DNA of 64,000 bases from Ancylobacter sp. TS-1. GTDB lineage: Bacteria; Pseudomonadota; Alphaproteobacteria; Rhizobiales; Xanthobacteraceae. A program made the translations under genes and the position numbers. Location: assembly GCF_009223885.1 (NCBI RefSeq), contig NZ_CP045144.1, positions 2,902,001 through 2,966,000 on the forward strand. Reading direction: 5' to 3'. This document shows, one piece after another, positions 18,889-23,621 of this stretch; position 1 is the stretch's first letter, and every line of letters starts with the position of its first letter. The notes beneath the pieces were generated by a model. That model worked only from the letters and a program-made list of their open reading frames with translations, searched no databases and was not told the DNA's origin.

Positions 18889-19701
18889 TCAGTACAGCGA
18901 GCGGGCAAGCTGCGCGGCCGTGCGATCGATGTCGCGCGCTCCGGCGGCCGCTCCCGCCGCGCGATCGGTGGGGGCGACGATGGCATAGGCGACCTCGCCG
19001 ACCTGCCAGTAGGCGGCGGTCAGGTCGTCCTTCGGCACGGTGGTGGCCGGCACCACGTCGAAGCTGCCGGGGCGCACCGCGAAGAGCGAGACGGCGCCGA
19101 GCTCGCGCGTGCGCACGGCAAGTTCGAGGCTCGGGCCGAAGGCGGAGGGGAAGACCTGCACGTCCTCCACCTTCCAGTCTTCCGGCAGCACCGGCATGAC
19201 AATGGCGGTGGCGGCACGGATCTCCGCCGGATCGTAGCGGTCGGCGCCGGGCTGCGAGCGCATGCCGGCGCGCACCTGCGCCGTGCGGTGGGCGCGCACC
19301 GCGTCCTCGACATAGGCCGGCGGCAGGGCGGAGGCGACGACGCGGCTGACCCCGAAATGGCCGAACTGGGCATGGGCGAACCAGCCGGCGCCGATGAGCA
19401 GCGCCACCGTCGCGGCGACCCGCAGCCGGCGCAGCCAGCGCTCGCGCGACAGCGCGCCTTCCAGCCGCCGGGCCGCCTCGGCGGTCGCCAGCCGCGCGGT
19501 GGCGGCCGAGGCCGGGCGCGGCGTCTCGGCCAGCGCGAGGCGCAGCTCGTCGCGGGTGCGCAGATCGGCCATCACCCGCGAGGCGGCGGCCGGATGCGCG
19601 CTGAGATAGGCCTCGACGTCGATGCGCCGCGCCACCGCGAGCTGGTCGTCGACATAGGCCTGCAAATCGTCGTCGGAGACGGGATCAACGGGACGGGTCA
19701 T
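18889..19701 (-). CDS. Membrane-anchored anti-sigma factor
   Basis: 270 aa. The cytosolic N-terminus VSDDDLQAYVDDQLAVARRIDVEAYLSAHP is the anti-sigma opening seen in RsiW/ChrR-like regulators, but without a zinc-binding H-x3-C-x2-C motif. One transmembrane helix lies at about residues 94-112 (RVAATVALLIGAGWFAHAQF). A periplasmic domain of about 155 residues may sense the signal. It overlaps the sigma gene by 17 bases, the usual sigma/anti-sigma arrangement, so it should hold that sigma factor inactive. Confidence 0.9.
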   Translation of the reverse strand: MTRPVDPVSDDDLQAYVDDQLAVARRIDVEAYLSAHPAAASRVMADLRTRDELRLALAETPRPASAATARLATAEAARRLEGALSRERWLRRLRVAATVALLIGAGWFAHAQFGHFGVSRVVASALPPAYVEDAVRAHRTAQVRAGMRSQPGADRYDPAEIRAATAIVMPVLPEDWKVEDVQVFPSAFGPSLELAVRTRELGAVSLFAVRPGSFDVVPATTVPKDDLTAAYWQVGEVAYAIVAPTDRAAGAAAGARDIDRTAAQLARSLY

Positions 19702-20266
19702 CCGCACCTCCCACAATGCGCAAACGGGTGGAAGGCCCGGCCGCGGCGCCGTCCTCGACGGCGCGCAGCGCGGCGCGGGCGCGCGACAGGCGCGACATCA
19801 GTGTCCCCTGCGGGATGCCGAGCGCGCTCGCGGCCTCGGCGTAGCCGAGCCCCTCTATGGCCACGAGATGCAGCGCCGCGCGCTGCTCCTCGGGAAGATC
19901 GAGAAAGGCGTCACGCACCTGGGCGAGGCGCAGGCTGTGCTCCTGCGCCGGGGCGACAACGGTATCGGCAAGGTCGCGGGCCTGCGCCTCGCGCCGGATC
20001 TGCGCGGTGCGCAGCCGGCGCCGGTCGATGAACACATTGTGCAGCACCGAGAGCAGCCAGCCACGCAGCCCGCCCGCCGCATCGCCGCGCTCGGCGTCGA
20101 AGCTGCCGCGCCGCTCATAGGCGCGCACCAGCGCGTCGTGCACGAGATCCTCGGCGTCGGTGTCGTCGCGGGTCAGCGAGCGCGCATAGCGGCGCAGGAC
20201 GGGGAGCTGCCCCATCACGTCGAACCGTATGCCGCCCTGCCGGCCGCTGGTCTTCTCGCGCCTCAT
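19685..20266 (-). CDS. ECF-type RNA polymerase sigma factor
   Basis: 193 aa with region 2 (LPVLRRYARSLTRDDTDAEDLVHDALVRAYE ... WLLSVLHNVFIDRRR) and region 4 (LPEEQRAALHLVAIEGLGYAEAASALGIPQGTLMSRLSRARAAL). It does not resemble EcfG, and no NepR/PhyR is nearby. The partner anti-sigma gene overlaps its end. ATG 20266 sits against a 12-base perfect palindrome; ATG 20215 (MGQLPVL) is an alternative start that fits the domain edge. Confidence 0.92.
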   Translation of the reverse strand: MRREKTSGRQGGIRFDVMGQLPVLRRYARSLTRDDTDAEDLVHDALVRAYERRGSFDAERGDAAGGLRGWLLSVLHNVFIDRRRLRTAQIRREAQARDLADTVVAPAQEHSLRLAQVRDAFLDLPEEQRAALHLVAIEGLGYAEAASALGIPQGTLMSRLSRARAALRAVEDGAAAGPSTRLRIVGGADDPSR

Positions 20267-20336: not shown

Positions 20337-20362
20337 GGAACGCGGCGGCGCCTTCGCCCGTT
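20337..20362 (+). promoter_or_regulatory. EcfG-type general stress promoter
   Basis: GGAAC (20337-20341), 17 bases, CGTT (20359-20362): an exact match to the alphaproteobacterial EcfG consensus GGAAC-N16/17-CGTT. Transcription would start near 20370, about 50 bases before the permuted kinase gene. Confidence 0.75.
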
Positions 20363-20420
20363 TATCTCCGCTGATGCCGACGCCCGTCGAGGCACTGTGA
20401 GGGAGGTTTCCGGCCGCGCC

Positions 20421-21596
20421 ATGACAACGGATGAAAAGACCACGCGCGAGAAGAAGACCGAGACACGGGCGAAGGAGAACCCGCCCGCCCTCGGCGTGCA
20501 CGGGGCGGCGACGCTCGCCGCCGTGACCGTCGACGCCTGCAACAGCCAGCTGCGCGAGGAGGACGGCTTCCTCGGCGACCGCGCCCGGCGCGCCTCCTTC
20601 TTCGAGGGACTGGAGCGCTGGCGCTCCGTCGCCGGCGGCACGCTGCCGCGCTTCGGCGACACGCCGACCGGCGAGCTGTCGAAGGCCTGCATCGACGAGG
20701 CGCTGGCCGAGGGCGAGCCGCATGAGCAGGCGCTGGTGCATGCCGCGATGGAAGATTACGCGCGCGACCTCGCGGCCGTGCTGCGGCGCCTGCTGCGCAC
20801 CAAGGACTGGCGCGGTACCGAGCGCATCGCGGTCGGCGGCGGGCTCACCGCCGGCCGCTTCGCCGCCATCGCGGTCGCCCGCGCCGAGCTGCTGCTGCGC
20901 GCCGACGACATCGCGGTCGAGCTGCGCCCGATCCGCAACGACCCGGACGAAGCCGGGCTGATCGGCGCCGCGCACCTCGCGCCGAGCTGGATGTTCGGCA
21001 GCTTCGACGACATCCTCGCGGTCGATATCGGCGGCACCAATATCCGCGCCGGCATCGTGAAGCTGAATCTCGGCAAGGCGGACGACCTGTCGAAGGCGCG
21101 GGTGCGCAGCTTCGATCTCTGGCGCCACGGCGACGACGACACCGGCCGCGACGACGCGGTGGAGCGGCTCGTCGACATGCTCAAGGACCTGATCGGCCAG
21201 GCGGAGAAGGAGGGGCTGAAGCTCGCCCCCTTCATCGGCGTCGCCTGCCCCGGCGCCATCGCCGCCGACGGCTCCATCGAGGCCGGCGGACAGAACCTTC
21301 CGGGCAATTGGGAGAGCGCGCGCTTCAACCTGCCCGCCGCGCTGTGGGACGCCATTCCCGAGATCGACGGCCACGAGACGGCGGTGGTGATGCACAACGA
21401 CGCCGTGGTGCAGGGGCTGAGCGAGGCGCCGTTCATGCAGGACGTCGAACGCTGGGGCGTGCTGACCATCGGCACCGGGCTCGGCAATGCCCGCTTCACC
21501 AACCGGGAGCGGCCGGGTCGGACCGGCAAGGCGGAAGGCGGGGAAAAGGACGGCAAGAGCGGCAGCAGGAAGAAGGGCGACGAAAAGAAGGGCTGA
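20421..21596 (+). CDS. ROK/sugar-kinase-like protein with circularly permuted motif order
   Basis: 391 aa, ASKHA fold expected. The usual order (phosphate-1, phosphate-2, adenosine, connect-2) is rearranged. The adenosine-type motif ERIAVGGGLTAGRF (about residues 136-149) and the C-terminal ROK-like PIRNDPDEAGLIGAAHLAP (about 172-190) come first. Then comes the phosphate-1 motif ILAVDIGGTNIRAGIV (about 199-214), the sugar-site region VACPGAIAADGSIEAGG and HNDAVVQG, and last the phosphate-2 motif LTIGTGLGNARF (about 350-361). The ROK zinc motif is absent and the tail is Lys/Gly-rich and probably disordered. ATG 20421 follows an EcfG-type promoter. Glucose or another sugar as substrate is only a guess. 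Confidence 0.8.
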   Translation: MTTDEKTTREKKTETRAKENPPALGVHGAATLAAVTVDACNSQLREEDGFLGDRARRASFFEGLERWRSVAGGTLPRFGDTPTGELSKACIDEALAEGEPHEQALVHAAMEDYARDLAAVLRRLLRTKDWRGTERIAVGGGLTAGRFAAIAVARAELLLRADDIAVELRPIRNDPDEAGLIGAAHLAPSWMFGSFDDILAVDIGGTNIRAGIVKLNLGKADDLSKARVRSFDLWRHGDDDTGRDDAVERLVDMLKDLIGQAEKEGLKLAPFIGVACPGAIAADGSIEAGGQNLPGNWESARFNLPAALWDAIPEIDGHETAVVMHNDAVVQGLSEAPFMQDVERWGVLTIGTGLGNARFTNRERPGRTGKAEGGEKDGKSGSRKKGDEKKG

Positions 21597-21662
21597 TGAG
21601 GTGCGTCGACCCGCCGCCGGTGCTGCGTCTCCGGTGTCAGGTCCCGGGCGCTTTCAGCCGGC

Positions 21663-22130
21663 CTAGGGGGCCGGCTTGCGCGGCGCGCGGCGACGGGGCG
21701 CCTTCGGCTCGGGGGCGTCCTCTTCGTCGTCCGCGCCTTCCCGCTCGCGGCGGGCCAGTTCCTCATATTCGGCGCGGATCGTCTCCAGCGCGGTGTCGTC
21801 CAGTTCCTCGAGGTCCAGCAGCACGCGGCGGGTGCCCTCGGTGCGGGCGATCAGTTCGTCGATCTTGATGTGCAGGGCGGCGGTGTCGCGGTTCTGGCTG
21901 TTCTGGATCACGAACACCATCAGGAAGGTGATGATGGTCGTCGAGGTGTTGATGATGAGCTGCCAGGTGTCGCCGAAGCCGGCAAAGGGGCCGGTGAGCC
22001 CCCAGACAAGGATGAGCGCGGCGGCGCCGACGAAGGTCGCCGGCTTGCCGGCGGCGACGGACACCCATTGGGCGAAGCGGGTGAAAGGCGACTGGTTCGG
22101 CCTGCCGGCCCGCGTGCTGCCCGACGCCAT
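21663..22130 (-). CDS. Low-affinity iron permease family protein
   Basis: 155 aa inner-membrane protein. Two hydrophobic helices (ATFVGAAALILVWGLTG, about residues 31-47, and WQLIINTSTTIITFLMVFVIQ, about 55-75) are followed by QNSQNRDTAALHIKIDELI, the family signature, and a charged Glu/Arg/Pro-rich tail. Named for similarity to fungal Fet4, but transport by the short bacterial form is unproven. An EcfG-type promoter lies 29 bases upstream. Convergent with the permuted kinase. Confidence 0.88.
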   Translation of the reverse strand: MASGSTRAGRPNQSPFTRFAQWVSVAAGKPATFVGAAALILVWGLTGPFAGFGDTWQLIINTSTTIITFLMVFVIQNSQNRDTAALHIKIDELIARTEGTRRVLLDLEELDDTALETIRAEYEELARREREGADDEEDAPEPKAPRRRAPRKPAP

Positions 22131-22158
22131 GGAAGATCCCTCACTGTTGCGGGGCGGG

Positions 22159-22184
22159 AACGCGGCGGCGCCCGTCATCGTTCC
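22159..22184 (-). promoter_or_regulatory. EcfG-type general stress promoter
   Basis: Minus strand GGAAC (22184-22180), 17 bases, CGTT (22162-22159): exact consensus. It points at the iron-permease-family gene starting at 22130. Confidence 0.72.
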
Positions 22185-22218
22185 CGCTCCGCGCACGGGG
22201 TGCTGCGCGCCGGCGCGG

Positions 22219-22407
22219 TCAGCGGTCCTTGACGTGCTCGGGCTTGCCCTTGCGCGGCGTCGCGGCGAAGTCCTCGAGCTGTTTCTCGGTCATGGACTCG
22301 ACCATCTGCTTCGAGGCGCCGCGCAGCGCGCTCTTGCTCGTCTCGCCGCGCTTGGCGGCCAGCGCCGCGCCGGCCGCCTTCTGCTGGGCCTTTGATTTCG
22401 CAGGCAT
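22219..22407 (-). CDS. DUF3008 small basic protein
   Basis: 62 aa, very Lys/Ala-rich (MPAKSKAQQKAAGAALAAKRG ... KSALRGASKQMVESMTEKQLEDFA). The family is common in Proteobacteria, usually near stress genes; function unknown. It follows the DUF892 gene by 78 bases in the same direction and may share its EcfG-type promoter. Confidence 0.85.
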   Translation of the reverse strand: MPAKSKAQQKAAGAALAAKRGETSKSALRGASKQMVESMTEKQLEDFAATPRKGKPEHVKDR

Positions 22408-22485
22408 GGAAGCCTCCCGGATGAGAGACGGCCGGCCCCGGCCCGGACAGGGGAGGATCCGGGGCGGGACCGGCCGGCGCGCGCC

Positions 22486-22992
22486 TTATTCGGCGGCGTG
22501 CAGGTTGACGCGGGATTCCGCCAGCTTGGTCAGCTTGGTGTCGGCGTTCTTCTCTTCCGTGAGGTTCTTCGCCAGCACCCCGGCGCAGTCCGGTCGGCCG
22601 AGCAGCTTGGCCCAGGCGATCAGCGTGCCGTAGCGGGTCATCTCGTAATGCTCCACCGCCTGCGCGGCGGCGATCAGCGCGGCGTCCAGCACCTGCTTGT
22701 CGGCCACCTCGCCGGCGACCTCCTCCGCCTCGTCGATGATGCCGTCGATGGCCGGGCAGTTGACCGCCTTCGGCTTGACGCCGTGCATGTGGAACACTTC
22801 CTCGACGCGCAGAATGTGGTTCTCGGTCTCGCCGAGATGATGCTTGAAGTCCGCCTTGAGCTGCGGATCATTCGCCTTCTCGATCATGGTCGGAAGCGCT
22901 TTCGCGATCTTCTTCTCCGCGTAATAGATGTCCTGAAGCGTGTGGACGAAGAGATCGTCCATCGTCTTGATGTCTTTCGAGAACAGACCCAT
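22486..22992 (-). CDS. YciE/YciF-type ferritin-like protein (DUF892)
   Basis: 168 aa four-helix-bundle protein with the DUF892 features DLFVHTLQDIYYAEKKIAKALPTM, DFKHHLGETENHILRVEEVF and AVEHYEMTRYGTLIAWAKLLG. The Glu/His pairs are the likely di-iron ligands. Members are stress-induced, often through the general stress sigma factor. It has an EcfG-like promoter about 95 bases upstream. ATG 22992 with AAGGAGG-like sequence before it. Confidence 0.93.
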   Translation of the reverse strand: MGLFSKDIKTMDDLFVHTLQDIYYAEKKIAKALPTMIEKANDPQLKADFKHHLGETENHILRVEEVFHMHGVKPKAVNCPAIDGIIDEAEEVAGEVADKQVLDAALIAAAQAVEHYEMTRYGTLIAWAKLLGRPDCAGVLAKNLTEEKNADTKLTKLAESRVNLHAAE

Positions 22993-23083
22993 GGTGAAGT
23001 CCTCCTTCCAGAGCGGTAATCATTTATGGTTGGCGGTAGTCGGCGGCGCCTCTACGCAAGGGCGATGCGGCCGACACCAGGAA

Positions 23084-23108
23084 AACCGGCTCGAACGAGG
23101 AACGTTCC
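23084..23108 (-). promoter_or_regulatory. EcfG-like promoter, one mismatch
   Basis: Minus strand GGAAC (23108-23104), 16 bases, GGTT (23087-23084) against the consensus CGTT. Upstream of the DUF892 gene. GGAACGTTCC here is also a perfect 10-base palindrome. Confidence 0.55.
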
Positions 23109-23117
23109 GCATTTTCA

Positions 23118-23561
23118 TCAGGCGTGAAGGCAGGGAGAACAGGCTACCGGCACGCCGAACGGCATCTGGTCTGGCGCGCGCGGGGGCAGTTCGATCGGCG
23201 CCGGGCGCGGCTCGTCGGCCGGCTCGTCGACATCCGGCACGATGTCCGGGTCGGGGTCCGGCGGCGTCACCGGGTCGTCGATAGCCGGCGGGGGACGGTC
23301 GGGCGGATCGCGCGGCGGCGGGGCGGCCTGAGCGTCCGCGCGACGGGGCGGCGGCGCCGGCGGCGGGTCGCTGATGATCGGCTCCTCCGGGTCGCGGACC
23401 GGCGGGCGCACCGGATCGCGGACGGGCGCGGGAGCGGGCGGCGGTTCCGGCATCGGCGGCACGCCGGGCGCGGGCGTGTCCGGCCGCCCCGGGGGCGGCG
23501 GACTGCCGGGCGTCGGCGCGTTCGGTATCTGGGGAATAGGGCTCGGCGGGTTGGGGGTCAT
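23118..23561 (-). CDS. Proline-rich hypothetical protein
   Basis: 147 aa dominated by Pro with Asp, Glu and Arg (PTPGSPPPPGRP, PVRDPVRPPVRDPEEP, DPVTPPDPDPDIVPDVDEP). It has no signal peptide, no membrane helix and no known domain, and is probably unfolded. It is supported as a gene by GGGAGGAG before the ATG, by an EcfG-type promoter 36 bases upstream, and by a clear start. An overlapping frame on the same strand (23020-23598) is low-complexity and rejected. Function unknown. Confidence 0.7.
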   Translation of the reverse strand: MTPNPPSPIPQIPNAPTPGSPPPPGRPDTPAPGVPPMPEPPPAPAPVRDPVRPPVRDPEEPIISDPPPAPPPRRADAQAAPPPRDPPDRPPPAIDDPVTPPDPDPDIVPDVDEPADEPRPAPIELPPRAPDQMPFGVPVACSPCLHA

Positions 23562-23596
23562 CGGCTGTCTCCTCCCGTGCGGACCGTGCGAGGACC

Positions 23597-23621
23597 AACG
23601 TCTCCCCGTCCGGGCGGTTCC
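23597..23621 (-). promoter_or_regulatory. EcfG-type general stress promoter
   Basis: Minus strand GGAAC (23621-23617), 16 bases, CGTT (23600-23597): exact consensus with the shorter spacer. It drives the proline-rich gene with a leader of about 30 bases. Confidence 0.7.

Follow-up and report, generated by a model that had tools for sequence, protein, structure and literature searches.

Families within one kinase fold group may be related to each other by circular permutation, as stated in the available part of a 2005 classification of kinases (PMC1079889). The ROK kinases can be considered in this light through PsNagK, for which the accessible portion of the published description assigns functional roles to D6, T10, N104-D105 (the base), T132 and G255, with the sugar being bound via E154, H157 and D187 (PMC10031466). 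According to the same portion, the small domain of PsNagK is formed by the N-terminal part together with the C-terminal helix, and therefore joining the old chain ends is feasible. Literature searches on permutation (PMC CC papers) revealed no naturally permuted ROK kinase among the matches listed.

Here we describe the gene of a circularly permuted ROK-type kinase of 391 aa, located on the plus strand at 20421..21596 of the window, that is, the whole stretch of 64,000 nucleotides analysed. Our preferred reading, to which we give a probability of roughly 0.72, is that the product is a natural permutant of a ROK-type (ASKHA) sugar kinase, which would be stress-induced, have one active site, act on a hexose and be linked to osmoprotectants.

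Gene Structure and Order of the Motifs

The reading frame is open from the ATG at 20421 to the stop codon at 21594-21596. An in-frame GTG is found at 20397, 24 nt 5′ of this ATG, and it may be the start codon in some annotations, since the protein of cluster P0002, 100% identical to the window protein, is 399 aa long. From the N- to the C-terminus, the window protein presents the adenosine motif, the closing helix, phosphate-1, the catalytic Asp and phosphate-2. The sequence-only reading had proposed this rotated order, with VGGG and GLIGAAHLAP in the first half, DIGGT in the middle and GTGLGN at the end, and the residue positions confirmed it. The adenosine motif VGGG (residues 138-141) is encoded at 20832..20843, and the closing-helix motif GLIGAA (residues 179-184), which represents the old C-terminus and belongs to the longer string GLIGAAHLAP (residues 179-188), at 20955..20972. 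A linker of near-fixed spacing in homologues (residues 190-198, 20988..21014) joins the old C-terminus to the old N-terminus, and is followed by the phosphate-1 motif DIGGT (residues 202-206, 21024..21038), by QNLPGNW (residues 291-297) and by HND (residues 325-327, 21393..21401), whose Asp327 is the presumed catalytic base, corresponding by motif to N104-D105 as given for PsNagK in the accessible text (PMC10031466). The phosphate-2 motif GTGLG (residues 351-355, 21471..21485) lies near the new C-terminus, as part of GTGLGN (residues 351-356).

The C-terminal tail that comes after it (21507-21593) is Lys/Gly-rich and of low complexity. It is long in the Ancylobacter and Bradyrhizobium members and short or missing in members outside these two genera; as a mere guess, it might bind polyphosphate or nucleic acid.

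Profile Evidence for Circular Permutation

The curated models scanned annotate merely half of each such protein, and databases usually label the permuted family simply "ROK family protein". In the window protein, residues 199-362 (21015..21506), homologous to the N-terminal half of ROK kinases, match positions 2-142 of the 294 of Pfam ROK (PF00480) with an E value of 3e-8, and the 34.0 bits obtained exceed the curated cut-off of 22.9 bits with the first half of the profile only. PF00480 was matched by 69 of 75 family members at E<=0.01. The first ~195 residues gave no Pfam or NCBIfam match at E up to 10.

A family profile was made from 75 members, picked from 241 listed, and compared by hhalign with 34 canonical zinc-ROK proteins, obtained from 39 fetched loci after five were dropped because no frame passed the motif and length filter, and with a second set of 120 PPGK-like proteins. 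In native order, two non-collinear alignments to zinc-ROK were obtained, one of family positions 202-361 to zinc-ROK 4-139 (score 87.9) and the other of the N-half, positions 91-196, to zinc-ROK 205-303 (score 62.2, E 1.4e-8), so that the swapped halves can indeed be aligned by profile, the N-half matching the C-terminal part of zinc-ROK. With residue 190 or 195 as the first position of the rotated family profile, a single alignment to zinc-ROK 4-301 or 4-303 was observed, with scores of 125.7 or 125.6, which raises the score from 87.9 to 125.7 and extends the homology to the whole ROK domain; the scores dropped on either side of these start points. In window residues, the rotated alignment begins at 197, reaches the phosphate-2 hairpin and then passes through the N-half to end at 189. 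Additionally, with a doubled profile the alignment runs across the junction (score 125.8).

The controls behaved differently. The column-shuffled N-half alone scored 10.9-24.1 (n=10) and the reversed N-half 19.2, joined profiles with a shuffled N-half remained at 87.4-90.1 in 10/10 cases, and 18 decoy families did not exceed 21.0 against the N-half or 28.4 against the C-half. In the canonical control, zinc-ROK aligned best to the PPGK-like set unrotated (161.1 vs 84.5-149.0 rotated). A chance motif order was thus rejected, the shuffles, reversal and decoys lying far below the N-half score of 62.2.

Other comparisons were less informative. Rotation brought no gain against the PPGK-like set (97.8 to 97.3), to which the N-half does not align; an hmmsearch of PDB sequences with the N-half (11 sequences) retrieved no ROK chain; and when Pfam was applied to rotated single sequences, the ROK match reached the full profile in just one of three proteins, with no bits gained. 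Since these tests gave little, the permutation signal comes from the profile-profile comparison together with motif conservation. The sequence-only reading had spoken of a clean circular permutation, and the rotation scan, the doubled profile, the shuffle and decoy controls and the motif order of homologues all agree with it; a natural circular permutation of a ROK-type kinase, real and conserved, is what these comparisons indicate with very high confidence. The same reading had likened the first 135 residues to the helices between phosphate-2 and the adenosine motif, which holds in part: residues ~85-189 (20673..20987) share homology with the C-terminal portion of canonical ROK kinases, which starts behind the zinc motif and extends to the chain end, but the match does not cover the first 135 residues, as residues ~25-84 showed no significant match.

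It could be argued that a truncated ROK N-half was fused behind an unrelated N-terminal domain, with no permutation at all, since single-sequence and profile-to-sequence methods see ROK in the C-terminal half only, with one exception. This explanation is hardly credible given that the N-half profile matches the C-terminal part of ROK at E 1.4e-8 with the controls far below, that rotation yields one end-to-end alignment, and that, in 75 aligned sequences, Gly139-141 and G182 are invariant and G179 and L180 nearly so. A fusion of two partial kinases, which the sequence-only reading had named as the outcome that would contradict it, was likewise rejected, the two halves being complementary.

Distribution and Conservation of the Permuted Family

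A first phmmer search returned at least 8000 matches at E<=1e-3 and a search with a Pseudoxanthomonas member 4892 of 7998, totals that may include canonical ROKs; the top 120 from each search were read, giving, with the window protein, a set of 241 homologues. Collecting homologues for their motif order, as had been suggested, showed that the canonical N-to-C order of ROK domains is replaced by the permuted one in 238 of the 241 read, where F-x-GD, GGG, DIGG, ND and GTGLGN follow each other in this order. The three exceptions each lack one motif by regex (two ND(A/G), one D(I/L/V)GG(T/S)). By a similar regex, 109 of the 120 PPGK-like proteins present the canonical order. The loss of the ROK zinc motif noted from the sequence extends to the whole set, CxCGxxGC being present in 0/241 homologues read, and the ExxGH expected after phosphate-2 is missing too, 162 of the 241 chains stopping less than 19 residues past GTGLG.

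Of the 236 homologues in which the spacing between the last residue of (G)LIG and DIGG could be measured, 229 have 18 or 19 residues; the other seven values, 103 or 122, look like regex mis-hits of the closing-helix motif. This spacing bears on the proposal that the permuted halves work solely in a domain-swapped dimer or together with a partner, the site of a single chain being incomplete. In its favour, PsNagK, a canonical ROK kinase, dimerizes via its large domain, as the accessible text reports (PMC10031466), and the new termini would lie near the presumed edge of the active site. However, every motif is found in one chain, the linker is of near-fixed length, as expected for in-chain closure, and no partner gene recurred across groups in the loci compared, which makes such an arrangement improbable.

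Among 289 genomes of the class, 12 strong matches (E<1e-100) and one weak match were found, and among 299 genomes of the phylum, 16 strong and 17 weak ones; nine of these weak phylum matches were inspected and proved to be canonical zinc-ROKs. In the same family, 85 of 149 genomes, from 31 of 47 genera, carry matches, a few of them being fragments only. The carriers, which we take to be Alpha- and Gammaproteobacteria, include Ancylobacter, Bradyrhizobium, Rhodoplanes and Hyphomicrobium, as well as Pseudoxanthomonas, Lysobacter, Luteimonas and Stenotrophomonas. Additionally, 206 plasmid records carry the family, mainly from Rhizobium (111) and Sinorhizobium (79). Two possible gene remnants were observed, a C-terminal piece alone in a genome of the same genus (G691, contig 8:375331-375438) and an additional N-terminal fragment close to a full copy in a genome of the same family (G468, contig 151:167192-167335).

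Predicted Active Site and Putative Sugar Pocket

The motif-based counterparts of the PsNagK residues are D202, T206, N326-D327, T352 and G139-141. All of these are invariant in the 75 aligned sequences, except for T206, which is nearly so, and thus the metal Asp, the catalytic Asp and the phosphate Thr of ROK sugar kinases are present. One ASKHA active site is highly probable, and the protein is predicted, with good confidence, to be an active kinase. A glucose-like substrate is also predicted, at even odds.

The sugar contacts of canonical ROKs seem to have changed. Equivalents of E154 and H157 would fall 22 and 25 residues past T352, yet 162 of the 241 chains end earlier and the window protein spans this position with its low-complexity tail alone. 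The canonical Glu and His contacts found no confidently aligned counterpart; hhalign places the new N-terminal HGA segment near E-x-G-H, one residue out of register and with low confidence. H27 (codon 20499..20501) and D53 of the F-x-G-D motif (codon 20577..20579) are candidates for a rebuilt sugar pocket because both are invariant in the 75 aligned sequences, the former as a putative substitute for the sugar-binding histidine of ExxGH and the latter as a possible sugar-contact acid.

It is conceivable that the permuted ROK fold has lost kinase activity and serves as a stress-linked sugar sensor or regulator. The ExxGH/zinc segment is missing (the zinc motif being found in 0/241), the genome already holds a Glk and a canonical PPGK-like ROK, and some ROK proteins are repressors, as mentioned in the accessible part of PMC12696579. 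On the other hand, Pfam detected no DNA-binding domain, and the metal Asp, catalytic Asp, phosphate-2 Thr and adenosine glycines, needless for a pure sensor, are invariant in the 75 aligned sequences. We consider this role rather unlikely.

In the preferred reading of a working permuted kinase, a linker of near-fixed length would now connect the old C-terminal helix with the phosphate-1 strand of the old N-terminus, and new termini would have arisen between the phosphate-2 hairpin and what was the position of the ExxGH/zinc segment, with loss of that segment. The chain would then take up the customary two-lobed fold with a single active site, in which Asp202 and Thr206 would serve metal and phosphate, Thr352 phosphate, Gly139-141 the adenosine, and Asn326-Asp327 sugar contact and catalytic base. 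The sugar pocket is probably reconstituted by the new N-terminal stretch that carries His27 and Asp53, and a hexose such as glucose would most likely be phosphorylated. The sugar phosphate, produced upon EcfG-type induction, would be supplied to osmoprotectant (trehalose-related) metabolism.

Promoter and Gene Neighbourhood

The motif of R. etli EcfG1 is GGAAC-N16-CGTT, according to the available part of PMC3892343. An EcfG/RpoE2-type general-stress promoter, GGAAC-N17-CGTT, which fits the GGAAC-N16/17-CGTT pattern of the EcfG regulon, is found on the plus strand at 20337..20362, ending 58 nt before the ATG. Thus, the stress promoter announced from the sequence is present, and its comparative support comes from part of the family only. 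In the 3.96-Mb genome the pattern occurs 78 times vs 38 for the pattern read backwards, and in the window five times vs 0.93 expected, three of the five lying between 22157 and 23621. The strict motif was sought within the 400 nt that precede the conserved HG in 99 of 101 loci that could be placed (L001 and L078 being left out), and was detected in 15 of the 99, vs 17 of 2970 random 400-nt windows. The positive loci were the one of the window genome, nine of 12 Ancylobacter-group loci and five of 20 loci from a further set of genomes, the motif being missing in 15 of these 20, in all 56 Bradyrhizobium loci and in all 10 other loci. L001, outside the 99-locus count, also shows it. In plasmids, the motif lies within 200 nt in 11 of 14 loci, two of these being S. 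meliloti loci with an identical site; the 14 come from 15 fetched loci, L179 (a 30% partial match) being excluded. These promoter data suggest that the kinase is most likely stress-induced via an EcfG-type response here and in several other lineages.

An ECF sigma factor gene (19685-20266, minus strand), oriented divergently with respect to the kinase gene, shows region 2/4 and PhyR-sigma2-like matches, and an ECF relative occurs in five of 13 Ancylobacter-group loci. An ORF without a Pfam match lies downstream and overlaps it, both within 18889-20266 on the minus strand, and may encode its anti-sigma factor. On the other side, a low-affinity iron permease gene (21663-22196, minus strand) and a DUF892 gene (22486-22992, minus strand) are found, DUF892 being nearby in eight of the 13 Ancylobacter-group loci. 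The permease and DUF892 genes, with a proline-rich ORF at ~23118-23561 (minus strand), belong to an apparent small stress island (20337-23621), whose EcfG-type sites are at 20337, at 22157/22159 (near-palindromic, on both strands) and at 23597 (minus strand).

Neighbours vary by genus. In Rhizobium/Shinella plasmids, otsB, coding for a trehalose-phosphatase, is the divergent neighbour in 8/8 fetched loci; in one case the annotation reads haloacid dehalogenase, yet the product is 95% identical to R. etli OtsB. According to the accessible part of PMC3188799, (p)ppGpp induces otsB in R. etli. A NAGGN-system peptidase, annotated as such in one case, is the neighbour in 3/3 fetched Sinorhizobium loci. 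Overall, OtsB is encoded in just 10 of 116 loci, and no operon partner is common across groups, the widest clusters beyond the kinase spanning five of 25 groups. In the window genome, otsB sits elsewhere, with an EcfG motif that begins 118 nt upstream of the first Met in the otsB frame. In a genome from another family of the same order (L166:7811), otsB (96% to R. etli OtsB) adjoins the permuted kinase, and this adjacency suggests that the two genes travel or are inherited as a unit. An osmoprotectant role of the permuted kinase is tentatively proposed.

A second ROK gene of the window genome (L082:1477-2181) encodes a canonical-order, PPGK-like protein of 234 aa, some relatives of which are labelled polyphosphate glucokinase. 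The permuted kinase is unlikely to be a housekeeping glucokinase, since the genome has a full Glk (PF02685, E 6e-80) elsewhere and this canonical PPGK-like ROK. More speculatively still than the osmoprotectant role, the family might represent a large, previously unrecognised clade of natural permuted ASKHA kinases, in which a sugar pocket rebuilt by the N-terminus replaces ExxGH and zinc and which was recruited by the stress response as a dedicated osmoprotectant kinase, perhaps with a substrate or phosphoryl donor beyond glucose/ATP.

Comparison with Known Kinases

A natural rotation of a fold that spans the active site, kept across a large family, tests how far ASKHA proteins tolerate new termini, and the family is also a test case for how a sugar pocket is rebuilt. 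Additionally, it points to an uncharacterised stress-linked kinase of rhizobia and relatives, encoded beside trehalose and NAGGN osmoprotectant genes.

The Glk-type kinases (PF02685) and hexokinases (PF00349) resemble the window protein through weak matches around phosphate-1 or phosphate-2, but it stays below their curated cut-offs and the Glk of this genome is encoded elsewhere. PPGK (NF045942) is the top NCBIfam match, weak and confined to residues 199-361, and was matched at E<=0.001 by 48 of the 75 family members. However, the 24.1 bits of the window protein fall far under the equivalog cut-off of 250, the N-half is unaligned, the family is permuted, and a separate canonical PPGK-like protein exists in the genome. 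As for the fold groups with permuted families, the available part of the 2005 classification names no ROK case (PMC1079889). The zinc-ROK kinases (PF00480; NagK, ROK glucokinase) share with the window family DIGGT, N-D-A, GTGxG, VGGG and the closing G-L-x-G-A-A, as well as a profile match over 4-303 once the family is rotated. Unlike them, the window family presents these motifs in rotated order, without the zinc motif and ExxGH segment, and with a new N-terminal segment that carries the invariant H27 and F-x-G-D.
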